Assembly: GCA_947627725.1 (NCBI GenBank)
Contig: CANQXE010000014.1
Span: 1-64,000 of the forward strand
DNA: 64,000 nucleotides
Direction: 5' to 3'
Origin: an uncultured Clostridia bacterium
Lineage (GTDB): Bacteria > Bacillota > Clostridia > Oscillospirales > Acutalibacteraceae
In this document: piece by piece, positions 3,412-64,000 of the stretch
Position numbering within the stretch: the first letter of the stretch is position 1
Layout of the letters: each line of letters opens with the position of its first letter
The notes under the pieces: model-generated
What the model saw: only the letters and a program-made list of their open reading frames with translations
Database searches by the model: none
Told to the model about the DNA's origin: nothing
Position numbers and translations under genes: made by a program

Positions 3412-6400
3412 TTGATTTTAAAACCTTTCTCACAATTTGCTCACAGGAATCGGCACTTTCATATGTCAGATATTTTTCATGAAAAGCTTTTATTCTGTCC
3501 TTACATTTTTCCGTTTCCTCATCAATATTCAATATTGAATCAATGACCTCATCCGTATCATAGAGAATCGGTCCCGGAGCCTCTTTCCTGAAATCCACAT
3601 AAAGCCCTCTTAGATTATTGCAATATTCATCTATATCATATGCGAAGAAAAGCATAGGCTTATTAAGCAGAGCAAAATCAAACATTACGGAAGAATAATC
3701 GGTTATAAGAATATCCGCAATCCTATAAAGATCTTCAACATATCTGTAGTTATTCATATCAAAAATAAATTCATTATCGGCAGGAATTTTGTATCCTTTA
3801 GAACAAAAATGGTGAAGTCTTACAAGGATAACATACTCTTCACTGAGTTTTTGGCGCATCATATCCAAATCAAGCTGCATATCAAAGTTGTTTTTAACTC
3901 TCCATGTCGGAGTGTAAAGTACAATTTTTTTATTAAAAGGTATGCCGAGGTTTTCCTTAATTTTATTTATTTTTTGCGCACTGCTGTCAAAAAGCTTGTC
4001 CGTTCTCGGATAACCTGTCCTTAAAATTTCGCAATCGCATTTAAAGCAGGAATAAGCCTTATCCTCCATGAATTTACCCTGAACAATCAAATAATTCCAT
4101 CTGAGGTTTTTCTTGATGTACAGTTCTTTCATATAATCGGTAGGAAAATCGCCCTCAACATCAAGACCAAGTGTTTTAAGAGGCGTTCCGTGCATTGTCT
4201 GAATTTCTATCTGACCGTCACGTTTTACATAACCGTCCTCAAAATTAACATTATTAACAAAATATTTTGCTGTCGCAAGATAATGATAATATTCCTGGGA
4301 GCCTCTGCGCACTCTTATACCCCTGCCCTTAACAGGAGTCCGCTCGTCAGTAAGGGACCAGATACACTGATATTCCGGATAATTTTTATCAATATACTCA
4401 TAAAGCGCCTGCGGATTACAACTGTATTTTGAACCCCACATTGACTCAAATACAATCTGCTTTTCATTAATAGGCTCTTCCCTGTATTTGGGATAGTTTT
4501 TGAATGTAAGCTCCTGTCTTTTTGAAAGAGTATTCTCATCCTCTCTCCAAACGCTCTTAAGGCGAAGCTTAACAGTGCCCGTTACAAATCTGTAAAACTC
4601 AAGCTCAAGAGTATCATCAATTTTCATTTTGATATTGAAATGCTTTTCGCGGTAAATCATATCGCGTAATACACTGCCGTCCGGCAAAATGTATTCAATA
4701 TATACATCTCTGTAACCGTTGTAAAAATTCCTGTTGATTTTTTTACTGTTAAAGTTAATTATAAATCTGCATATTGCTTTGCCCCTTTTATGGGAGCATA
4801 TTGACTTAGCAAGAATAACTTTCTCTTTCGTTATGGCGTCATCTACACAAATATACGCTTTTTTGGCTTTAGCTATTTCTTCGTTTGAACCTTCGGCAAC
4901 GGTTTCCATTGCGACAAAATTATATTTCTCCGCAACTCTTTTAAGAACAGAGGCTCTCTCCTCAAATCTTAAGAGGACGAAATTTGTCCGTGTAGTCTGC
5001 ACCAAAGAAACTCTCGACGGCAAAGAAATCACCTGAGAGTACTTTTTTTGATGAAGGAGTCTGTCCGTGTCGCCGTTTAACTTCTCAATATACAAGGAAT
5101 AATTAATTCCATTTTCAAAAGCGGTACAGTCCGTGCTGAAATGCGTTTCATCATTTCTTTTAAATTCTATCTGGTTATCTGAATTGTTTTCTTTCGCAAA
5201 AATTCTGTTTGCGGGAGCGTCAAGCACGCAGCTTAGCATATTATCCTTAAATGAAATATCGGCCGCAAAAACCTCCTCATTATTAATAAAAAGCTGAAAT
5301 TCATCAAGATAAGAATACTTGGGAACAACTCTTGTTCTGTCGACAAAAAATGTTTTGTTTTTTGATTTTCTTTTGACATCGTAGCTGACGGAATTTAAGA
5401 ATAAACTTCCCTTCTTAAGCCTGTTTTCATATTCGATATAAATTCTGTTAGTCCCCTGGTATTTTTCCTTTACCGCATTTATTATATTGTTATTAATGGT
5501 AATCATATATCCGACGCCGTCATAATTGTACTTGGATACCTTCTTGGTCGTCTTATCGATATAATATCCCCAGTCAGCAGTTAAATCACGATAACGTCCG
5601 CGCTTTACACTGAGAGGATACTTTTCATTTGTTATATCATTATAAAGATATGCCTTTATGCTCTGTTCCTCAAAATTACTAATATTAAGACGGCTTTGAA
5701 AAATATGCGCGTAAATACTTATACTTCCGCCTTTAACTATAACATTATCAATAGCATTATTTGGCTCAATGTTACGCAAATCATCAGTAATATTTCTTTT
5801 ATTTATTGTAAATAAATCATCGGGAAGGTCAATGTAAAATTCACCGTCCTTTTCATTAACCGGAGCGGCATAGTATCCGTTTTTTTCATAATCAAGCAGC
5901 TTGATGAGGGCATTGAGATTATTATCCATAATATATCTGTATTTCTGCTGATTAATTATTGCTAATGATTCAAAAACGCTCTCATCGACAGAAGAATTTA
6001 TATAATCTCTAATAATACTTAAAATTTTTTCTGCCCGCTCTACAGATACTTTTACACACTGATAAATAAAAATTGAAAGGTCAATTTCAAGGTGCTTCGC
6101 CTTCTGAAGCTTTTTCAGATTCTCTTCGCTTACATTTTTATCAAAAAACTCGTCAAGCATCTTCATAACAGTGATTCTGTCATTCAGATTTGTCATATCC
6201 GATGCGTTCTGCGTTATTGACTTTGAAACGCCGTCACGCACCCGCCAGAGATAACCCACACTGTTTACAACAGAAACATTGTTTGCAAAATAATGCATAG
6301 GGATAGTTACCGGAATATCTTCATAGAGAATGTTTTCAGGAAACTGAAAGTTATGATTCAGATAAAACGAGTGTAATATCAGCTTGTTCCATGAAGTTGT

Positions 6401-6877
6401 ATCATACAAAAGATTTGGTTTTTTAGTTATATGTGTTACACTTTCGGTATCGGTAAACACCTTTTTATGAAGGCTTGACTGCCACGATTTTTTTGAGTTG
6501 AACCTCGCTACGTTACAGATGGTTAAATCGCTGCCGTTTTTTTCAGCAGCGCAAAACATCTTCTCATAGGCGTCCTGCACAACAATATCGTCCGAATCCA
6601 CAAACGCAATATATTTTCCGTTTGCCATAGTTACAGCGTAATTTCTGGCGTGACCTAATCCGCTGTTTTCAATACGTTCATAATAAAAATGATCATATTT
6701 TTCAGCATATTCCCTGGCGATTTCTCCGCTTCTGTCTGTAGACCCGTCATCAATCATAATAACCTCAAGGTTATTCTTTGTTTGATTTAAAACGCTGTTA
6801 AGGCAAGCCGCAATATATTTCTCAACATTATATATCGGGATTATTACACTTATATCAGGTGCGTTTTCTGAATGCAT
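3407..6877 (-). CDS. Fused family 2 glycosyltransferase + CDP-glycerol:poly(glycerophosphate) glycerophosphotransferase (TagF/TarF-like)
   Basis: N-term 'ISVIIPIYNVEKYIAACLNSVLNQT...DDGSTDRS' (GT2). C-term 'MHGTPLKTLG...YPRTDKLF...LYTPTWR...ITDYSSVMFDFALLNKP' (CDP-glycerol transferase). RBS AAGGAG precedes Met at 6877. Confidence 0.88.
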   Translation of the reverse strand: MHSENAPDISVIIPIYNVEKYIAACLNSVLNQTKNNLEVIMIDDGSTDRSGEIAREYAEKYDHFYYERIENSGLGHARNYAVTMANGKYIAFVDSDDIVVQDAYEKMFCAAEKNGSDLTICNVARFNSKKSWQSSLHKKVFTDTESVTHITKKPNLLYDTTSWNKLILHSFYLNHNFQFPENILYEDIPVTIPMHYFANNVSVVNSVGYLWRVRDGVSKSITQNASDMTNLNDRITVMKMLDEFFDKNVSEENLKKLQKAKHLEIDLSIFIYQCVKVSVERAEKILSIIRDYINSSVDESVFESLAIINQQKYRYIMDNNLNALIKLLDYEKNGYYAAPVNEKDGEFYIDLPDDLFTINKRNITDDLRNIEPNNAIDNVIVKGGSISIYAHIFQSRLNISNFEEQSIKAYLYNDITNEKYPLSVKRGRYRDLTADWGYYIDKTTKKVSKYNYDGVGYMITINNNIINAVKEKYQGTNRIYIEYENRLKKGSLFLNSVSYDVKRKSKNKTFFVDRTRVVPKYSYLDEFQLFINNEEVFAADISFKDNMLSCVLDAPANRIFAKENNSDNQIEFKRNDETHFSTDCTAFENGINYSLYIEKLNGDTDRLLHQKKYSQVISLPSRVSLVQTTRTNFVLLRFEERASVLKRVAEKYNFVAMETVAEGSNEEIAKAKKAYICVDDAITKEKVILAKSICSHKRGKAICRFIINFNSKKINRNFYNGYRDVYIEYILPDGSVLRDMIYREKHFNIKMKIDDTLELEFYRFVTGTVKLRLKSVWREDENTLSKRQELTFKNYPKYREEPINEKQIVFESMWGSKYSCNPQALYEYIDKNYPEYQCIWSLTDERTPVKGRGIRVRRGSQEYYHYLATAKYFVNNVNFEDGYVKRDGQIEIQTMHGTPLKTLGLDVEGDFPTDYMKELYIKKNLRWNYLIVQGKFMEDKAYSCFKCDCEILRTGYPRTDKLFDSSAQKINKIKENLGIPFNKKIVLYTPTWRVKNNFDMQLDLDMMRQKLSEEYVILVRLHHFCSKGYKIPADNEFIFDMNNYRYVEDLYRIADILITDYSSVMFDFALLNKPMLFFAYDIDEYCNNLRGLYVDFRKEAPGPILYDTDEVIDSILNIDEETEKCKDRIKAFHEKYLTYESADSCEQIVRKVLKSK

Positions 6878-7149
6878 AAATAATTCTCCTTCATTAAAGT
6901 CCGTCATTCACAATACAAACTAATTGGTAAAAATTATAATATCAAATAATATACAAATAACAGTAACCACTCTCAAGCTTATTATTTGTTATTATTAAAC
7001 CGTCTAATCTCTTAAAATATTAATCAGTTTTAAAAGGCACATAAAATAACGCTTTTATCACTTTCTAAACTATAATATTATTTTATTTTACATTATATTT
7101 TTTAAATTATATCACAATAAATATCACTTTTCAACAAAAGCACATAAAA

Positions 7150-7188
7150 AACGGGTTATCTCAAATAAGGCTTTGAGATAACCCGTTT
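7150..7188 (-). terminator. Intrinsic terminator after ferredoxin gene
   Basis: ACGGGTTATCTCAAA-TAAGGC-TTTGAGATAACCCGT hairpin followed by T-run on minus strand. Confidence 0.85.
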
Positions 7189-7206
7189 CATTTATGGATA
7201 TTTTTA

Positions 7207-7377
7207 TTATGCCTGTGCAGGAGCGCTTACAGGGCAAACACTTTCGCATGCGCCGCACTCAATACAAGTAGCGGCATCGATAACATACTTGCCGTCACCC
7301 TCTGAAATTGCGCTTACAGGACATTCGCCTGCACATGCGCCGCATGAAATACAATCCTCAGAAATTGCGTATGCCAT
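7207..7377 (-). CDS. 2[4Fe-4S] ferredoxin
   Basis: Two CxxCxxCxxxCP motifs (CISCGACAGECP, CIECGACESVCP). Confidence 0.95.
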   Translation of the reverse strand: MAYAISEDCISCGACAGECPVSAISEGDGKYVIDAATCIECGACESVCPVSAPAQA

Positions 7378-7448
7378 TACAGATACACCTCCCACATCAA
7401 ACTTCTAAAACTAATATAACAGTATATCAGCAAAAAATCAAGCTATTT

Positions 7449-8297
7449 TTATTCTTTTGTCCTATTTTCTGTATGGTAATTTGAGTCACTGTTAACAGCT
7501 ATTACCTCTTCCCTGTCGACAACAACCGGCAGTCCCTCAGGCGACTTATCAAGCTGAACCTTCAGCTTGCCTGTAAGGAGAGATGCGTCAACAACAACTC
7601 CCCTGCCCTCGCGGCAATCAACAACCGTGCCTTTCTTAGGAGTAATCTTTTGCAGATACTCATATGAATTCTGCTCGTATTTTAAACAGCACATAAGTCT
7701 GCCGCATGTTCCGCTGATTTTACTCGGCGCAAGTGACAGTCCCTGATCCTTTGCCATTTTAATCGTAACCGAATGAAAATCATCAAGAAAGGTTGAACAG
7801 CAAAACGGTCTGCCGCAGATACCGAGACCGCCGAGAAGCCGGCTCTCATCACGCACGCCTATTTGTCTCAGCTCAATTCTTGTATGAAAATGCGAGCCTA
7901 AATCCTTGACAAGCTCTCTGAAATCAACTCTTCCGTCGGCTGTAAAATAAAAAATAATCTTTGATCTGTCAAAGGAATATTCAGCGTCAGTCAGATACAT
8001 TTCCAGATTATGCTCCTTTATTTTTTCAGCGCATACCGCAAGAGCATCTTTTTCAAGCTTTTTATTTTCCTCAAGGATTTTTAAATCCTCGTCTGTCGCA
8101 ATTCTTTTAACCGGCTTAAGCGGTGAAACGACCTCGCTGTCGTCAACCTCTTTTACGGCGCTTTGCGCCGCTCCGCACTCAATACCCTTTGAGGTTTCAA
8201 GCACAAGAGTCTGCCCTTTTTTTATATCAAGACCCTGCGGGTCAAAGTAATAGGTCTTGCCTGTGTCCTTAAAGCGAACACCAACAACCTTTGTCAT
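7449..8297 (-). CDS. ricT: PSP1-domain protein, RicT/YaaT-like
   Basis: Motifs 'GGLGICGRPFCCSTFL' and 'SGTCGRLMCCLKYE' typical of the PSP1/YaaT family; adjacent to holB. Confidence 0.88.
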   Translation of the reverse strand: MTKVVGVRFKDTGKTYYFDPQGLDIKKGQTLVLETSKGIECGAAQSAVKEVDDSEVVSPLKPVKRIATDEDLKILEENKKLEKDALAVCAEKIKEHNLEMYLTDAEYSFDRSKIIFYFTADGRVDFRELVKDLGSHFHTRIELRQIGVRDESRLLGGLGICGRPFCCSTFLDDFHSVTIKMAKDQGLSLAPSKISGTCGRLMCCLKYEQNSYEYLQKITPKKGTVVDCREGRGVVVDASLLTGKLKVQLDKSPEGLPVVVDREEVIAVNSDSNYHTENRTKE

Positions 8298-8313
8298 TTA
8301 TGTATCCTCCATA

Positions 8314-9294
8314 TTATCTGCCGACAGCTTGTCTTAAGCTGTAACAGATTTTAGTAATCAGAATTGAATTATTTGAATTCATCAATGCCGTTTCCTTAAG
8401 TGTATCACAAACATTCATTAAGTCAATAAGTTTTTGCCTGGTAAGTTTTGTTTTTAACAGCCTTGCCGTTTCTCTTTGACCTGACAAAAAATCTCCGTTC
8501 TCTCTGTACGCAAGCGCGTCTCTGAAAATATTTTTTAAAAAATCGCATGCAAAAACGACAGCGTTCCTGTCCCTCTGAAATACGGAGCAGGCACATAAAA
8601 GCGAATACTCGCTGTCATTCACAAGCGCCCCGCAAATATCACAGCAAATCTGTGCAAGCTCATTCTGTTTTGAATCTGAAAAGCTGTCAATGGTTTTTCC
8701 TATATTGCCGTTAAAGGTTTCAAGGGCGCGTTTTGCCTCGCCATAACCGATATTTTCAAAATGAGATGAAATATATCCCGCTCCCTTGTCAATGTCAACA
8801 CTCTCAAGACTTACGACAACAGACCTTGAAATGACTGTTTCAAGAAGCATACTCTTGGACTGCGCCGTAAGAATAAAGACCACATATTGAGGCGGCTCCT
8901 CAAGCACCTTTAAAAGAGCGTTCTGCGCAGATATGCTCATACACTCCGCATTACCTAAAATATATATTTTAAATTCCGCCTCATTCGGCTGAACATACGC
9001 ATCCTTGACTATTTCCCGAATAACACTAACGTGAAATGAATTTGCTCCGCCCTGTGCGCTGTATTCAAATATATCGGGATGTATTCTCTCCTCAGCCTTA
9101 TGGCACTGAGCGCACTTCATACAGGGCTTTTCTTCTCCCCGACAAACAAGAGCCGTTGCCAGTGAACGCGCCAGTGTCCTTTTACCAAGACCCTGTTCGC
9201 CCTCAATAACAACAGCGTGAGGAAAGCGCTTGGTATCAATAAGATATCCAAGCTGTTCAATTATTCTTTCGTTTGAGATAAAATCTATTTTCAT
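8314..9294 (-). CDS. holB: DNA polymerase III delta' subunit
   Basis: 'GEQGLGKRTLARSLATALVC', 'CMKCAQC' zinc module, 'NALLKVLEEPP'. Confidence 0.9.
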   Translation of the reverse strand: MKIDFISNERIIEQLGYLIDTKRFPHAVVIEGEQGLGKRTLARSLATALVCRGEEKPCMKCAQCHKAEERIHPDIFEYSAQGGANSFHVSVIREIVKDAYVQPNEAEFKIYILGNAECMSISAQNALLKVLEEPPQYVVFILTAQSKSMLLETVISRSVVVSLESVDIDKGAGYISSHFENIGYGEAKRALETFNGNIGKTIDSFSDSKQNELAQICCDICGALVNDSEYSLLCACSVFQRDRNAVVFACDFLKNIFRDALAYRENGDFLSGQRETARLLKTKLTRQKLIDLMNVCDTLKETALMNSNNSILITKICYSLRQAVGR

Positions 9295-9295
9295 A

Positions 9296-9619
9296 CTATA
9301 ACTTTTTGAATTGATCTACATCCACAACAAACGCAACCGCTCCGTATTCCTCCACGTCAACAGGCTTTTTGAGGAGGGAACCCTCTATTGTGCTTTCAAC
9401 CCCTGTTTTGCGAACAACGCGTTTTGTAACATTCTTTTTTAAAATACTGAAAAGTAAATCAACCTTATCGTCCTCAACACCGTAAAGAATGGTTGTGTGA
9501 CCGCCTTCTAAAAACTGACCTTCCGTTGAAACCTTTGTTGAAAAAAAGCCTTCTGCTCCTGTTGCCGCAAGAACTTTAGATAAATCCTTATTTGAAATAA
9601 TAACGATAACTAATTTCAT
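9296..9619 (-). CDS. darA: PII-like cyclic-di-AMP receptor, DarA/YaaQ family
   Basis: MKLVIVIISNKDLSKVLAATGAEGFFSTKVSTEGQFLEGGHTTILYGVEDD; synteny with holB/ricT. Confidence 0.85.
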   Translation of the reverse strand: MKLVIVIISNKDLSKVLAATGAEGFFSTKVSTEGQFLEGGHTTILYGVEDDKVDLLFSILKKNVTKRVVRKTGVESTIEGSLLKKPVDVEEYGAVAFVVDVDQFKKL

Positions 9620-57316: not shown

Positions 57317-57826
57317 ATGAAAATTATTGATACATATGACAGTATATATTCCTCATATAAGCATAATGTGTTCGACATTGAGTTATGGGAAAAATATGCA
57401 GATGAAATTTCTTCTGAATTAAAAAATAAGGTAAAGAAAGATTCAAAGCGTAATGATTTTGAAAAGCAAACACTTCCTGTATTAAACAGCCTGATAAAAA
57501 ATCGTGAAACCGCAAAAAATGCACACGCCTCATTTCTTAAGTCTACGAAAAATCTTGAAGAAAAAATATTTGAAAAATTCAATGTAGATTTAGATGTTAC
57601 AATTGTTTTTTATCTCGGGCTCTGTAATGGTGCAGGCTGGGCAACGACCATTAACGGAAAGCCTGCTATTCTTTTGGGAATTGAAAAAATCACAGAGCTT
57701 AACTGGTGTGATGAAAAAAGTATGATTGCTTTAATTTATCACGAGCTTGGTCACATATGGCATTTTCTTTTTGAGAAGAAAAACCTGATACCCTTGACTG
57801 TCCGCAAAAAACTAATAAAAATTTAA
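57317..57826 (+). CDS. HExxH-containing putative Zn-metallopeptidase, apparently C-terminally truncated
   Basis: 'IALIYHELGHIWHFLF' near the C-terminus; ends soon after in KKLIKI*. Confidence 0.55.
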   Translation: MKIIDTYDSIYSSYKHNVFDIELWEKYADEISSELKNKVKKDSKRNDFEKQTLPVLNSLIKNRETAKNAHASFLKSTKNLEEKIFEKFNVDLDVTIVFYLGLCNGAGWATTINGKPAILLGIEKITELNWCDEKSMIALIYHELGHIWHFLFEKKNLIPLTVRKKLIKI

Positions 57827-57842
57827 ATATATAAAATATCTT

Positions 57843-57870
57843 GAGGCAGTTTCATTGAACTGCCTTTTGC
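57843..57870 (+). terminator. Intrinsic terminator
   Basis: GAGGCAGTT-TCATTG-AACTGCCTTTTGCTTTT. Confidence 0.75.
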
Positions 57871-57875
57871 TTTTA

Positions 57876-57904
57876 TTGAATTTTATTTTATATTCTGCTA
57901 CAAT
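57876..57904 (+). promoter_or_regulatory. Sigma-A-type promoter
   Basis: TTGAAT-N17-TACAAT upstream of 57950. Confidence 0.55.
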
Positions 57905-57949
57905 AAATTTAATAAAATACAATATTTTATAAAAGTCAGGAGGATTAAT

Positions 57950-59470
57950 ATGAAACATAAAAAAAGCATTATTCTAACTTCGGTTTTTACGGCTTTGTCT
58001 GTTTTAACCACACTCAGCTTCTGCGGTTTTCGTTTTGGCTTTATTTTTGTTGACCACTACGTATTTGACGGATTTTGCTGTGTGCTTTGGTCATTGTTTA
58101 TTTTAAATACCGTAATCCTGTTTTTTCAGCTCAGAGGCAGTATACGCGGCAACAGGCTGTATAACAAAAAGTTGTTTATAGCAAATACTGTTTTTTCTGT
58201 TATCAGTTTTATTTGCTGTATAGCTTTTATAATTATCGGCGGCAAAGATGAGTTGCTTAATTATTTTTATATGTCATTTGAAACGCTGCCGTACCTTGCA
58301 TTGTTTTACGCATTTATCTTTTTTACGGCGGTATTGCCCGTTTGCAGACAAATTTTTCATAAAATTACAGCGGTAATTGTATCTGCTGCGATTATTGTCT
58401 GCGCTATCGTAATAATCTTTCCTGCGGGAGGATTTGATTTTGAAAGCAAACCCGCCGTTTTTGACACGGGAGACGGATACCATATAGTTTTTGCCACAAA
58501 CAGAAAATCCGTAGGGTACGTAAAAATCAGTGACAGCGGCAATGATAAAATTGTTTGGGATACGCTCACGGGAAGGAAGGAATCCTCACGCGTACACAGC
58601 ATTAAATTATCTTATGACGAACTTAATAATAAAGAATATTCTATTGGAGCTGTACGTGCTGTTGAGGATATAGCGTACGGAGGACATCTCGGCAAGGAAA
58701 TCACGCTTTTAGCCGGAAAGTTTACACCGTGTCCCGAGGACGATTTTGATATGACATGCATAACAGATAATCACAGCAGCCGTCCGAACTGGGAGACTAT
58801 GGGAAAAGATGCTGAAATATTTGTTTTCTTAGGCGATATCGCGAATGGTATTTATACATATGACAGCTTTATTGATAATCTGATAGTCCCTGCGGGAAAA
58901 ATAAGCGGCGGCATAAAACCTGTTGTATATGTGCTCGGCAATCACGACCACAGAGGAAGCAAGGTTCCCGATTTGATGTCCTCCCTTGATTTTGATGAAT
59001 TTTACTACCGTCTTAATATAGGTAAATATGTTTTTACCGTCCTTGATTCGGGCGAGGATAAAGAGGATGAAAATTATGAATATGGCGGATATAATGATTA
59101 TTCATCATATTTTTCAAAACAAACCGAATGGGCACGGAACCTGCAAAAAGAAAAAGGTTATAATATTATTCTCACTCATTCCCCTATAATTTTTTATGAA
59201 CCGGACGAAAAACAGTCTCCTGTTTGCGAAATTATGAGAAATCTCGGCGAAGAGCTTATCATATGCGGACATATTCACACAGCGGAGTTTGTAGATAAAA
59301 ATGAAAGTAAAACAGGTATTGCGTATTATATCTGCGGCGGAAAAACGGATGCGCGCAATATCAATTACACTAAAATGCATTTCAATCAGGGACTTGTTGA
59401 CATAAGAAGTGAAAGCACACAGGGTGAGCTTATTCTTGAAAAACAGCTCCGGCTGAGCGAAATTAAATAG
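57950..59470 (+). CDS. Membrane-anchored calcineurin-like metallophosphoesterase
   Basis: N-terminal TMs then 'FLGDIANG', 'YVLGNHDHRGS', 'ILTHSPI', 'ICGHIHTAEF'. Confidence 0.85.
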   Translation: MKHKKSIILTSVFTALSVLTTLSFCGFRFGFIFVDHYVFDGFCCVLWSLFILNTVILFFQLRGSIRGNRLYNKKLFIANTVFSVISFICCIAFIIIGGKDELLNYFYMSFETLPYLALFYAFIFFTAVLPVCRQIFHKITAVIVSAAIIVCAIVIIFPAGGFDFESKPAVFDTGDGYHIVFATNRKSVGYVKISDSGNDKIVWDTLTGRKESSRVHSIKLSYDELNNKEYSIGAVRAVEDIAYGGHLGKEITLLAGKFTPCPEDDFDMTCITDNHSSRPNWETMGKDAEIFVFLGDIANGIYTYDSFIDNLIVPAGKISGGIKPVVYVLGNHDHRGSKVPDLMSSLDFDEFYYRLNIGKYVFTVLDSGEDKEDENYEYGGYNDYSSYFSKQTEWARNLQKEKGYNIILTHSPIIFYEPDEKQSPVCEIMRNLGEELIICGHIHTAEFVDKNESKTGIAYYICGGKTDARNINYTKMHFNQGLVDIRSESTQGELILEKQLRLSEIK

Positions 59471-59487
59471 CTTAAGTATCAATTACC

Positions 59488-60000
59488 ATGAAACTTATAA
59501 AAGAGATTACCGATAAGGAAATTTTGGGGGCAGAGGGGCTTTCATCGGCAAAGCCGAGAATAACTGCAAGAGCAATATTAAAAAGACGTGACGGACTATA
59601 TGCCGTTATGTATTCGGAAAAATTCAATTTATATTCACTTGCAGGCGGTGGTATTGAAAAAGATGAGGACATTATAACCGCATTAAAAAGAGAAATAATG
59701 GAGGAAACAGGCTGTGAATGCGATAAAATAAATGAGCTCGGATATGTCTACGAAAACAGAGCGCATTGCGATTATACACAGTGTTCTTACTATTTTGTTG
59801 CGGAAACAAAGGGCGCTGTAACAGCTCCCGAAATGACAGACATTGAAACGGCAAACAAAACCTCATGTATGTGGAAGCCCTTAAAAGAGGTAGTTGATTT
59901 AATAAAAACGCCCGTTCATAACACAAATCAAAGAAAATTTTTACAGGCAAGAGACATTGCCGCCTTGAATGAATATTTAAAATTAATTAAAGCCTTATAG
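59488..60000 (+). CDS. NUDIX hydrolase
   Basis: 'GGGIEKDEDIITALKREIMEETGCE'. Confidence 0.88.
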   Translation: MKLIKEITDKEILGAEGLSSAKPRITARAILKRRDGLYAVMYSEKFNLYSLAGGGIEKDEDIITALKREIMEETGCECDKINELGYVYENRAHCDYTQCSYYFVAETKGAVTAPEMTDIETANKTSCMWKPLKEVVDLIKTPVHNTNQRKFLQARDIAALNEYLKLIKAL

Positions 60001-60039
60001 CTTTTCAGTCTGCCATAAGGATAAAATATTTATAAAAAA

Positions 60040-60340
60040 ACACCCTGCCGAAAAACGCTGCGGGCTGGTAAGGAAGTAATTTCTGATGGTATGGGAAGGT
60101 GCAGTTTTTAGGACTGCGTCTTCCCGCCTTTATGCGGTGAATATGAATTCAAAAGGGAGATTGTTAAATTTGGATTGTGGGGTCACAATCCGATGCTTGC
60201 TGCACGTAGGGGACACGTTGTCGCAAGTTCCGTATCGTTCGTTTCCGTACAAGTACAAAAGTCTGCTGCAACTTGCTCACAGCCTGAAAACTAAGCAGCT
60301 GCCTTGCCGACATTGACAGACAGTCGGAAGACCTCTTTTC
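60040..60340 (+). ncRNA. Candidate structured RNA or long 5' leader upstream of the sigma factor
   Basis: Strong hairpins GGGAAGGTGCAGT-TTTTAGG-ACTGCGTCTTCCC and GGATTGTG-GGGT-CACAATCC; more GC-rich than neighbouring intergenic DNA; no convincing CDS. Confidence 0.4.
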
Positions 60341-60412
60341 CCGGTTTAAATAATTTTTTCAAAAACTTCCAACCTTTTCAGATTCTCGTGTCTATATGGG
60401 TGAAAGCTTTCA

Positions 60413-62092
60413 ATGAGGTGCAAACAAGTGAACAGACAGGACGTAGAGAAAACTATAACCGAATACCTGAAACCCATATTCGGATTTGCTCTGAAGAGGT
60501 GTAAAAGCATCCACGATGCAGAGGATCTGTCACAGGAAATCGCGGTAAAAGCGTTCCGTGGGCTCCTTGTTAAGGATGACGTTGCGGACATGGGAAAGTT
60601 CATCTGGACCGTTGCCCATAACACGCTCAGCAACTATTATCGTGATGCTGCTAAAAGTATGGTCGGTGTTTCTATTGATGAGGTTGCGGAGCTGATCGCA
60701 GATCCGTGCTCCGAGCCGGACACCGACGACAATGCAGAAGCTATCCGTCGTCTCCGGACTGAGATTGCTTACCTTTCTAAACTGCAAAGAAGAATCGTGA
60801 TTGCGTATTACTTTGAGAATCGCAAGCAGGCGGATATTGCGGGAGAACTGGGTATTCCTCTCGGCACGGTCAAGTGGCACTTGTTTGAAGCCAAAAAAGA
60901 ACTGAAACGAGGGATGGAAACGATGAGAAATTCAAGCGAACTGAAGTTTAATCCGATTAAATTTGACTCCTACGGAATGAACGGGTCCGTTGGCAAAAAA
61001 TCTCCCGAGGAATTCTTCCGGTCGGCACTTTCCCAGAATATCTGCTACTGCGTGCGAAACGAACCGAAAACAGTCAACGAAATTTCCGATGACTTGGGTG
61101 TTTCCCCTGTGTATGTGGAAACGGAGGCAGACTTCTTAGCGGAATACGGCTTTCTGCGGCTCGAAAAGGGGAAATATTTTGTCAATTTTCTTATCAGCGA
61201 ACCGACGTCCGAACTGCTTACCATGCAAAATGATATGTATCGGCGTGCCGCAGCACTGTTCGCAAACGATTTGTATGACGAGCTGACGGACTCCGGGATT
61301 CTTGATGATTCGGATATTGTTTGCAATCAGACAGACGAGCCTATTTCCCTTACCGAATCGCCGCGCGCCGACCGCAATTTTCTTCTCTGGTCGCTGATTC
61401 CGTATATCGCCGCCTGCTCGGGCGAAAATCTGATGGATCAGCATATTTCGTTCGAGGAAGTTGCCACCTACCGCCCGGACGGCGCGCACGACATTTACAA
61501 CGCAACGGTCGTGCCGAATAATTTGATGCTCCCGGCGGACTACGTTTATATGAAAAACTGGAGCGGACCGATGTGGAACGTGTCAGACGGCCGAATGCTG
61601 TGGCAGGTAAACAGCGAATGGTCGGATCGAGAACCTCCGACTCCGAGCTTTTCGGAGGATGCCAAACGGGTGCTCTCGCTCTACCGTCGGGAAGAATACA
61701 ATATCTTATCAAAGGACGAGTATGCGTGGCTTGCGGAACGTGGATTTGTAAAGACCAACGGTGACTATGACGGTCAGTTTAAGTCATCATGGCAGATTGT
61801 TGTACTGGCAAGCAAAGAAATTCAAGATAAACTCCTTGCCATCGGTGAGCGAATCAAGGTAAAGTATCGGACGGACTTTGATGCGCTGAAGGCACCTTAT
61901 GTCGAGGCGGTGCTCAAATCGGTTCCGGCGCACCTTAGAAAAATGAAACAGTACGAATTACAGTTCCTTTTTCACTCCGACGGGTGGTTTTTGCTGCACT
62001 GTCTGACTGTCTTGCTGCAAAACGGAAAGCTGAAGAAGCCGACGGAAGGACAGAGGAAGTTGTTGACCATGCTTATTTTGGAGGATAAATAG
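60413..62092 (+). CDS. Sigma-70/ECF-like RNA polymerase sigma factor with a large C-terminal extension
   Basis: Sigma2 'DAEDLSQEIAVKAFRGL...FIWTVAHNTLSNYYRD'; sigma4 'LSKLQRRIVIAYYFENRKQADIAGELGIPLGTVKWHLFEAKKEL'; then ~380 aa. GTG at 60428 is an alternative start. Confidence 0.85.
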   Translation: MRCKQVNRQDVEKTITEYLKPIFGFALKRCKSIHDAEDLSQEIAVKAFRGLLVKDDVADMGKFIWTVAHNTLSNYYRDAAKSMVGVSIDEVAELIADPCSEPDTDDNAEAIRRLRTEIAYLSKLQRRIVIAYYFENRKQADIAGELGIPLGTVKWHLFEAKKELKRGMETMRNSSELKFNPIKFDSYGMNGSVGKKSPEEFFRSALSQNICYCVRNEPKTVNEISDDLGVSPVYVETEADFLAEYGFLRLEKGKYFVNFLISEPTSELLTMQNDMYRRAAALFANDLYDELTDSGILDDSDIVCNQTDEPISLTESPRADRNFLLWSLIPYIAACSGENLMDQHISFEEVATYRPDGAHDIYNATVVPNNLMLPADYVYMKNWSGPMWNVSDGRMLWQVNSEWSDREPPTPSFSEDAKRVLSLYRREEYNILSKDEYAWLAERGFVKTNGDYDGQFKSSWQIVVLASKEIQDKLLAIGERIKVKYRTDFDALKAPYVEAVLKSVPAHLRKMKQYELQFLFHSDGWFLLHCLTVLLQNGKLKKPTEGQRKLLTMLILEDK

Positions 62093-62120
62093 GAGTTTGC
62101 GCCAACCCAAGGAAGTAAGA

Positions 62121-62168
62121 TGCCCCCAAAACGCTGCCTGCATTTTGCAGGCGGCATTTTGGGGGGCA
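62121..62168 (+). terminator. Long perfect-type hairpin after the sigma factor
   Basis: TGCCCCCAAAACGCTGCCTGCA-TTT-TGCAGGCGGCATTTTGGGGGGCA. Confidence 0.65.
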
Positions 62169-62210
62169 GAGTTTCCTATACCAACTTCTCATCATTAAAG
62201 AATACACAAG

Positions 62211-62254
62211 AAAAGGCAGCACAAAGAGCAGAAATGCTTTCTGTGCTGCCTTTT
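62211..62254. terminator. Intrinsic terminator
   Basis: AAAAGGCAGCACA...TGTGCTGCCTTTT with inner AGCA-GAAA-TGCT. Confidence 0.75.
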
Positions 62255-62343
62255 GCCTTTGCTAACGCCAATTCGGTTGTAATTGAATGATGTTTTCAAA
62301 TTACTTCCTTATGCGTCCGGTGCAAATTCAGCAGGGTGTTTTT

Positions 62344-63168
62344 TTACTGTTTAGTTTCTTCCGTTTTTTTATTTGCGTTTTCTTCTGTTTTTTTCTCTTT
62401 TGGAACAACAGGCCTTTTAACAGACTTCTTGCCTGTTTTTTCCTCATAAACAGGTATAACCTCGTCAAGACCTCCCTGCGCTACAATCTCCCCGTGTTCA
62501 AGAAGAATTGCCTTGTCGCAGATTGCCTTTACCTGCTCAATACTGTGAGACACGAATAAAACCGTAACACCTTTATCAAAAAGCGATTTAACCTTTGCGA
62601 GGCTCTTTTTCTTAAAGCTCGCGTCACCTACTGACAAAACCTCGTCAAGTATAAGAATATCAGGCTCGACGGCAGTGGCTATTGAAAATCCGAGCCTTGC
62701 TTTCATACCGCTTGAATAATTCTTAACGGGAACTTTAATAAAATTACCGAGCTCGGAAAATTCAACAATTTCATCAAATTTTCCCTTAATATATTCCCTG
62801 TCGTATCCGAGAATAGCTCCGTAAAGATAGATGTTCTCTTCGCCTGTATAGTTAGGGTCAAAGCCCGCGCCGAGCTCAAGCAAAGGTGCTATAACGCCTG
62901 ATTTTTCAATAGTACCCTGTTTTGGCTTATACACACCGACAATTGTCTTTAAAAGCGTACTTTTTCCCGCTCCGTTCAGACCGAGAATCGCAAGATGCTC
63001 GCCTCTTTTAACCTCAAAGTTTATATTCTTTAAAGCGTAAAATTTTTTATAATCAAGCTTACGGGTAATAAGCTTAATGACATATTCCTTAAGATTATCA
63101 ACCTTTTCTTTATTGAGATTAAAGGTCATTGTAAGATCCTTTACGGAAATCGCTACGTCCTTTTCCAT
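62344..63168 (-). CDS. ABC transporter ATP-binding protein for polysaccharide/teichoic acid export (TagH/Wzt-like)
   Basis: 'AILGLNGAGKSTLLKTIVGVYKPKQGTI', 'YSSGMKARLGFSIATAVEPDILILDEVLSVGD'. Confidence 0.9.
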   Translation of the reverse strand: MEKDVAISVKDLTMTFNLNKEKVDNLKEYVIKLITRKLDYKKFYALKNINFEVKRGEHLAILGLNGAGKSTLLKTIVGVYKPKQGTIEKSGVIAPLLELGAGFDPNYTGEENIYLYGAILGYDREYIKGKFDEIVEFSELGNFIKVPVKNYSSGMKARLGFSIATAVEPDILILDEVLSVGDASFKKKSLAKVKSLFDKGVTVLFVSHSIEQVKAICDKAILLEHGEIVAQGGLDEVIPVYEEKTGKKSVKRPVVPKEKKTEENANKKTEETKQ

Positions 63169-63183
63169 ATCTTCACCCTCTGT

Positions 63184-63981
63184 TTATTTTTCCTTCCTGA
63201 CCTTCCAAACAATAACTGAAAAAATCAGTGAAATGAGGAGCAGGAAACAGCCTGAAATGATAAAGCTGACTAATCCGCTGTAAATATAATTCATAATAAG
63301 CTCTCTCAAATAAAGAGGAAAAATATCTATATGCTTTATTTGAAGTATAATACAAATTATCAGTGAACTGAAAATATCAAACAAGCCTGCCGAAGCAAAG
63401 CTGATACCGACGGCACGTATTGAGCGGTATCTTTTAGTACCGATAAAGAACAAAATAAGTGCAATTGATAAAGCGAAAAATGCGCTGACGCATAAAACAA
63501 CTATTAATGCAATTGAACCGACATTCACTAACGTTTTTTCATTAGTAACACTTATATCCATCTCGTTTACCAAATAATCGTTTACGGATTTTACAATAAG
63601 GCTGACATTCTCCTCGTTGTTTTCCAAATTTTTTCCGTCAAGCTGCTTTGTTATGTCGCTTTTAATAACATCGCAGATACTGCCGATAGACTCAAGATAT
63701 GTATTTTCATTATATCTTGAATCAAGACCGAGATTATATGAAATATAAGAATCAATCGCTTCCGAAACAAGCTTTTCATCAATTATATCTTCAACACTGC
63801 CTGTATCAAGACCGTTTTTTAAATAAATATCAGTAGTGTAATCAACGACGCTGTTCTTTACAGAGCTGACATATTTGTAGCTTGTAAACATATTTTCTAT
63901 TCTGTTTTTATTTAACAGCACGGCTTTTGATGACGCTGATAAACTGAGCAGCACAAGCATTACAAAAAGCGCAAAGGACAA
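63184..63981 (-). CDS. Hypothetical membrane protein, may continue past the window edge
   Basis: Long ORF with N-terminal TM and three C-terminal TMs; start near the edge is uncertain. Confidence 0.55.
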   Translation of the reverse strand: MSFALFVMLVLLSLSASSKAVLLNKNRIENMFTSYKYVSSVKNSVVDYTTDIYLKNGLDTGSVEDIIDEKLVSEAIDSYISYNLGLDSRYNENTYLESIGSICDVIKSDITKQLDGKNLENNEENVSLIVKSVNDYLVNEMDISVTNEKTLVNVGSIALIVVLCVSAFFALSIALILFFIGTKRYRSIRAVGISFASAGLFDIFSSLIICIILQIKHIDIFPLYLRELIMNYIYSGLVSFIISGCFLLLISLIFSVIVWKVRKEK

Positions 63982-64000
63982 CAGGATTCTTAAAGTCTTT

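Follow-up and report, generated by a model that had tools for sequence, protein, structure and literature searches.

Extracytoplasmic function (ECF) sigma factors with large C-terminal extensions have been catalogued in several groups, mostly without a mechanism. In ECF41 (SigJ, Ecf41Bli), the extension replaces the anti-sigma factor and control is described as intramolecular (PMC8999054, PMC3426412). ECF262, whose type comes from Ruminococcus albus, has a C-terminal extension with no known mechanism and is placed under 'Others' (PMC8999054, Table 2). Here we analyse a sigma factor gene of this general build in a 64,000-nt stretch of DNA (the window; contig CANQXE010000014.1, positions 1–64,000) from an uncultured Clostridia bacterium of the Acutalibacteraceae (GCA_947627725.1, genome G000 below). 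The initial annotation had taken the gene to encode a self-contained sense-and-transcribe protein, probably horizontally acquired. From comparative sequence analysis, we consider it about an even bet (probability roughly 0.5) that the gene is a mobile, autoregulated orphan ECF-type sigma switch.

Comparison with described ECF groups

Compared to ECF41, which has a SnoaL-like domain, the window protein carries a winged helix followed by a matchless domain of ~290 residues; no SnoaL match was found in Pfam, and a Foldseek search with the extension returned winged helices only. The protein resembles ECF42 in having a long C-terminal extension and no anti-sigma factor. However, ECF42 is defined by TPR repeats and a conserved YCII/DGPF-type neighbour, whereas here Foldseek and Pfam gave no TPR match and the 80 homologous loci compared share no conserved neighbour. 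The initial annotation had cited both groups as precedents and had named a match of the extension to a well-characterised ECF group as the finding that would count against it; the domains that mark the two groups are absent. The extension of CorE (ECF238) is thought to sense its ligand directly, a point of likeness, but ECF238 requires a cysteine-rich C-terminal domain and a CXC motif in the sigma2–sigma4 linker. The alignment of the window protein's family shows neither, and the window protein instead has a CYC pair within the winged helix, which is not retained in distant clades. Known extension domains (SnoaL, TPR, WD40, cysteine-rich) were therefore rejected, none giving a Pfam or Foldseek match. 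The ECF262 type protein (SFB89493.1), compared by description only, is likewise an ECF sigma factor of a gut Clostridium with an extension of unstudied mechanism. The window sigma factor is of a kind already catalogued without mechanism and possibly belongs to ECF262.

A dedicated promoter upstream of the sigma gene

In 79 of 81 family upstream regions, a CCAAC motif and a GTCTAT-type element stand 16–17 bases apart, and the remaining two are near-matches with one base changed. The family promoter, CCAACCTTTT-N8/9-GTGTCTATA, is nearly invariant among proteins that are 65–92% identical. The gene therefore has what is expected of an autoregulated sigma factor, a promoter of its own, 5' of its own gene and conserved in the family.

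Genome-wide promoter searches were made with patterns rather than a weight matrix. In G000 the pattern occurs once, before the sigma gene, and it was still single when up to three mismatches were allowed at the main spacing. Across 14 genomes, all 11 matches precede a family gene, one of these being a decayed remnant. As a reversed control pattern gave seven matches, the looser pattern says little by itself; the evidence lies in where the matches fall. When 915 kb of family loci were scanned with a weight matrix, no second convincing site emerged: the one extra match scored 19.5, compared with 27–41 for the genes' own sites and 15.4 for the best match in reversed sequence. Matches in viral contigs sit within coding sequence, without a family gene. 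Because the dedicated promoter was found nowhere else in the genome, the sigma factor appears, on sequence grounds, to switch on mainly itself. The sense-and-transcribe proposal is not borne out so far: the sole such promoter in the genome is the gene's own, and sensing by the extension is conjectural.

The decayed remnant (L274, G478:C12:61517) retains an intact promoter, after which only ~26 codons and a short piece from further along the gene are left.

A palindrome follows the −10 element

Just 3' of the −10 element lies a perfect 12-bp palindrome, TGAAAGCTTTCA, which accompanies the promoter in nearly all close homologues and occurs once in G000. In the 14 genomes, all 13 exact copies precede a sigma-type ORF (open reading frame), including ORFs of clades with other core promoters. 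In some members of the close family the palindrome varies on both sides (TGAGAGCTCTCA in L050, TGAAAGCGCTTTCA in L022 and GAAAGCGCTTTC in L024), and in distant clades its position is taken by other perfect palindromes, such as CGGTACCG, ACAACATGTTGT, ATTGATCAAT, CAATCATGATTG and ATCACCGGTGAT. Upstream regions of paralogues contained a perfect palindrome of at least 12 bases in 28 of 83 cases (0.46 in shuffles) and a zero-loop dyad with arms of at least 5 bp in 36 of 83 (1.6 in shuffles). Hairpins with loops of 3, 4, 5 and 6 nt were present in 3, 5, 3 and 0 regions, against about 1.7 expected for each. Because clades have palindromes in common, the 83 regions do not count as independent, although at least 10 different sequences of at least 10 bases are involved. 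Symmetry that runs through the centre, with its excess at loop size zero, is the signature of putative DNA dyad operators rather than of RNA hairpins.

At two loci (L005, 7795–8118, and L113), a family member is followed directly on its 3' side by another sigma paralogue, which has a promoter of its own and shares the palindrome; the L005 copy is truncated.

The sigma gene lies on an inserted unit

Compared to sister species G546, the window carries a 2,268-bp insertion around the sigma gene. The empty site is at locus L239 of G546, where 5684–7935 corresponds to window 57802–60055 (95.9% identity) and 7933–9605 to window 62324–63997 (85.5%), with nothing between; the left flank is 91–96% identical overall and the right flank 85%. 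The terminator hairpin after the NUDIX gene is whole in G546, and its two arms frame the insertion in the window. When a target-site duplication was looked for, the G546 junction showed only a 3-bp overlap, and the site itself is a hairpin.

Just inside its ends the unit has exact 14-bp terminal inverted repeats. A 13-mer of the terminal repeat has only four copies in G000, arranged as two facing pairs. The second pair bounds a 5.5-kb unit (L252, G000:C41, 1757–7244) that, judging from ORF sequences rather than a family search, carries a LysR-type regulator, an alpha/beta hydrolase, flavodoxin-like proteins and an aldo-keto reductase. No transposase-like ORF was found in this unit or between the window repeats, which enclose no substantial gene besides the sigma gene. 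In G514 the same ends enclose a sigma ORF that belongs to another clade and is shortened. In G530, a genome of the window organism's genus, a 93.6% identical promoter-plus-gene unit lies at an unrelated locus, with homology limited to 60352–62059, and only 6 of 60 sampled genomes of the genus match over most of the protein. The inverted terminal repeats, dispersed copies, empty site and lack of an internal transposase gene are reminiscent of non-autonomous DNA transposons (cargo units like miniature inverted-repeat transposable elements), although the window unit differs in carrying a complete, putatively self-regulated sigma gene.

The sigma gene also stands out in composition, as the initial annotation had noticed by eye. 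Its GC content is 48.8%, compared with a mean of 41.0% (standard deviation 4.2) over 50 window ORFs, its GC content at third codon positions is 57% (z = 3.1), and both rank first of the 50; its codon-usage distance ranks first among the 21 window ORFs longer than 350 aa. Indistinguishable usage would have spoken against acquisition. The suspected horizontal acquisition is now strongly supported by the empty site in a sister species more than 90% identical, the terminal inverted repeats, the same ends on other cargo, the 93.6% identical copy at a different, unrelated site in a second species of the genus and the patchy presence in the genus.

Among 75 family loci tested for terminal inverted repeats, only a few had long flanking repeats. 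The window's ends are thus not family-wide, and terminal inverted repeats were rejected as a family rule. Elsewhere, copies are flanked by hairpin-forming repeats of other types, some of them CRISPR-like. Terminator-like hairpins are doubled around the sigma gene as direct copies in L041, L055 and L058 and split by it into inverted halves in L049, which suggests that hairpins are a preferred landing site of sigma units.

Two 95% identical sigma units occupy unrelated sites in two species (L016, 3071–5021; L018, 1131–3310). Each has a direct CRISPR-like repeat on either side (GTCGCCCCGTTCACGCGGGGCGTGGATTGA in L018) and no visible array; the repeat gave a weak Rfam CRISPR-DR9 match, below the gathering score.

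The C-terminal extension and the family

The 559-codon ORF on the forward strand (60413–62092) is present as first described. The two sigma regions fall within the first ~180 residues, as had been proposed, and TIGR02937 covers residues 11–166. Having sigma2 and sigma4 and none of the other sigma-70 regions, the protein is an ECF (group 4) sigma factor. Past residue ~180, no Pfam or NCBIfam family reached cut-off in a search with the 559-residue protein. An AlphaFold model of the extension, built with 79 sequences, is of high confidence (predicted local distance difference test 93.9, predicted template modelling score 0.91). It places helices at residues 205–213, 221–228 and 232–244 and a wing at 248–262, and Foldseek matched this winged helix alone, over ~60 residues, to the winged helices of ArsR/CadC/SmtB and SelB, in agreement with the winged-helix-like stretch first noticed after sigma4. 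No PDB structure matched the extension at E ≤ 0.001, and viral models (BFVD) matched only the winged helix. Since Foldseek matches are limited to the winged helix, residues 265–559 have no confident structural relative in the libraries searched. According to the model, the ~380-residue extension consists of a winged helix and a further ~290 residues for which Pfam, PDB and BFVD offer no confident match; the stretch that the initial annotation could not assign is therefore a domain with a confidently predicted structure, to which no solved structure gives a confident match.

A single scan of genome contigs gave 123 relatives. The 80 that we kept (65–92% identical), a lower bound on the close homologues in gut Clostridia, share the same architecture and are full length, except for one truncated by a contig end. 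Their loci show no conserved neighbour, and no anti-sigma gene adjoins the window gene. A linked anti-sigma factor or operon partner was therefore rejected, which agrees with the earlier view of a self-contained protein with no visible anti-sigma factor. Of 197 genomes sampled from the order, 54 hold distant paralogues of ~550 residues that keep the sigma and winged-helix layout, with as many as ten in a single genome; in the phylum, 9 of 300 genomes have such paralogues. One relative (L213, 7446–9122, in G515) is chimaeric: its sigma part is 85.5% identical to the window protein and its extension 46.7% (−6 standard deviations), with the break at the sigma4/extension junction. Sigma part and extension are thus separable modules.

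A phage or plasmid origin was rejected, with three weak sigma-domain matches to phages, no plasmid match and no relative in viral contigs, and so was a defence-system protein, with no credible PADLOC match.

A possible one-gene switch and its alternatives

Together, these observations are consistent with a switch in which the sigma protein would direct RNA polymerase to its own promoter, giving positive feedback, while a dimeric protein, most simply the window sigma factor or a paralogue acting through its extension, would bind the dyad over the initially transcribed region and block transcription, giving negative feedback. The C-terminal domain could shift the balance on sensing a ligand or stress, and the one-gene switch would travel as a cassette that lands in intrinsic terminators. 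Several points weigh against this reading. The winged helix has an acidic recognition helix (VYVETEADFLAEY) that is much alike in clades with differing palindromes, which makes it doubtful that this helix reads the dyad. Some paralogues lack any palindrome, and distance tests did not single out the extension: half-site divergence tracked the winged helix no better than the sigma part, and it did not track the C-terminal domain. Target promoters that have diverged or are differently spaced could also have escaped the promoter searches. The acidic helix would fit a separate host regulator that owns the palindrome, the fused winged helix then serving as a dimerisation or RNA-polymerase-contacting module, and TGAAAGCTTTCA is indeed common to three clades with different promoters and different extensions. 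We regard this as doubtful, if the most plausible of the alternatives, because the palindrome was not found away from superfamily sigma genes in G000 and the other genomes tested, and because clades use different palindromes, which would be odd for a host regulator. That the palindrome acts in RNA, as a 5' hairpin controlling translation or stability, seems very improbable. It does lie at the expected mRNA 5' end, next to the Shine-Dalgarno sequence, and the winged helix resembles the RNA-binding winged helices of SelB, but a hairpin has no need of a self-complementary loop such as the central symmetry implies, and Rfam gave no match to an RNA element at 59900–62500.

Many ECF factors autoregulate. 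The window gene could be a conventional one-component stress regulator in which the extension keeps the sigma factor inactive, as in ECF41 or ECF42, until a ligand frees it, with regulon promoters too diverged for our searches. Its layout is the same as in known ECF groups with C-terminal regulatory extensions (PMC8999054). However, we think this rather unlikely given the lack of a second convincing site in the family loci or in G000, and given that the matches in viral contigs lie inside coding sequence. Conversely, the absence of detectable targets and the solitary position of the gene in every context would suit a selfish gene with no host function that persists by driving transcription of itself and relies on a transposase in trans for its mobility, as would the patchy distribution, the shared ends on unrelated cargo and the decayed copies. 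This, too, we judge unlikely: strong conservation of a well-folded extension in many genera suggests that its function is under selection. More broadly, we propose only tentatively, and with less confidence than for the window gene, that gut Clostridia harbour a widespread superfamily of mobile sigma modules, each a single gene with a promoter of its own, its own exchangeable dyad operator and no other host target, acting as mutually orthogonal, self-transcribing switches that spread into hairpin sites. If the self-only regulon is confirmed, these sigma factors would act as mobile, self-sustaining switches, and gut Clostridia would offer a natural supply of orthogonal promoter/operator pairs. 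Because promoter, putative operator and module boundaries can be read from comparative DNA, the regulation is testable in vitro with three parts.

Start codon and features of the locus

Translation probably starts at GTG 60428 rather than at ATG 60413, the start first assigned to this otherwise real ORF. The sequence (M)NRQDVEK is conserved, the protein from GTG 60428 begins VNRQDVEK and GAGGT stands upstream, whereas ATG 60413 is not kept among homologues and overlaps the Shine-Dalgarno sequence. The feature is also larger than the ORF, as promoter and palindrome (60369–60412) and the mobile unit belong to it (Table 1).

Table 1. Features of the sigma locus (window positions; residues numbered on the 559-codon ORF)
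Feature	Positions	Strand	Remarks
Mobile unit carrying the sigma gene	60056..62323	.	Insertion compared with G546, within the terminator hairpin after the NUDIX gene
Left-end repeat of mobile unit	60065..60260	+	79% copy at G000:C41:7056–7248; 74% copies in G514 and G530
Left terminal inverted repeat	60069..60082	+	TAAGGAAGTAATTT; 14 bp, exact inverted match to 62298–62311
−35 element	60369..60378	+	CCAACCTTTT, nearly invariant in the 79/81 upstream regions with CCAAC
−10 element	60388..60397	+	GTGTCTATAT; GTCTAT-type with ECF-type GTC core, fixed spacing, 79/81 upstream regions
Putative dyad operator	60401..60412	.	TGAAAGCTTTCA; perfect 12-bp palindrome, family-conserved, both-sided changes
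Shine-Dalgarno sequence	60415..60419	+	GAGGT; conserved in family
Sigma factor coding sequence, probable start GTG 60428	60428..62092	+	554 aa; start NRQDVEK conserved
Sigma region 2	60455..60652	+	Residues 15–80; sigma70_r2, PF04542, E 7.6e-8
Sigma region 4	60746..60904	+	Residues 112–164; sigma70_r4_2, PF08281, E 1.7e-12
Winged helix	61025..61198	+	Residues 205–262; AlphaFold model, Foldseek matches to ArsR/SelB-type winged helices
C-terminal domain	61205..62089	+	Residues 265–559; confident model, no confident structural or Pfam match
Strong terminator-like hairpin 3' of gene	62123..62166	.	CCCCCAAAACGCTGCCTGCATTTTGCAGGCGGCATTTTGGGGGG
Right-end repeat of mobile unit	62236..62317	+	93% copy in G546:C1, 90% in G000:C41, 79% in G514:C17
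Right terminal inverted repeat	62298..62311	-	TAAGGAAGTAATTT; 14 bp, inverted match to 60069–60082

G000 also encodes two more sigma factors with long C-terminal extensions of another kind (L002, 1429–3252; L003, 1450–3540), in which an apparent membrane-spanning stretch is followed by a repeat-rich or unassigned part.
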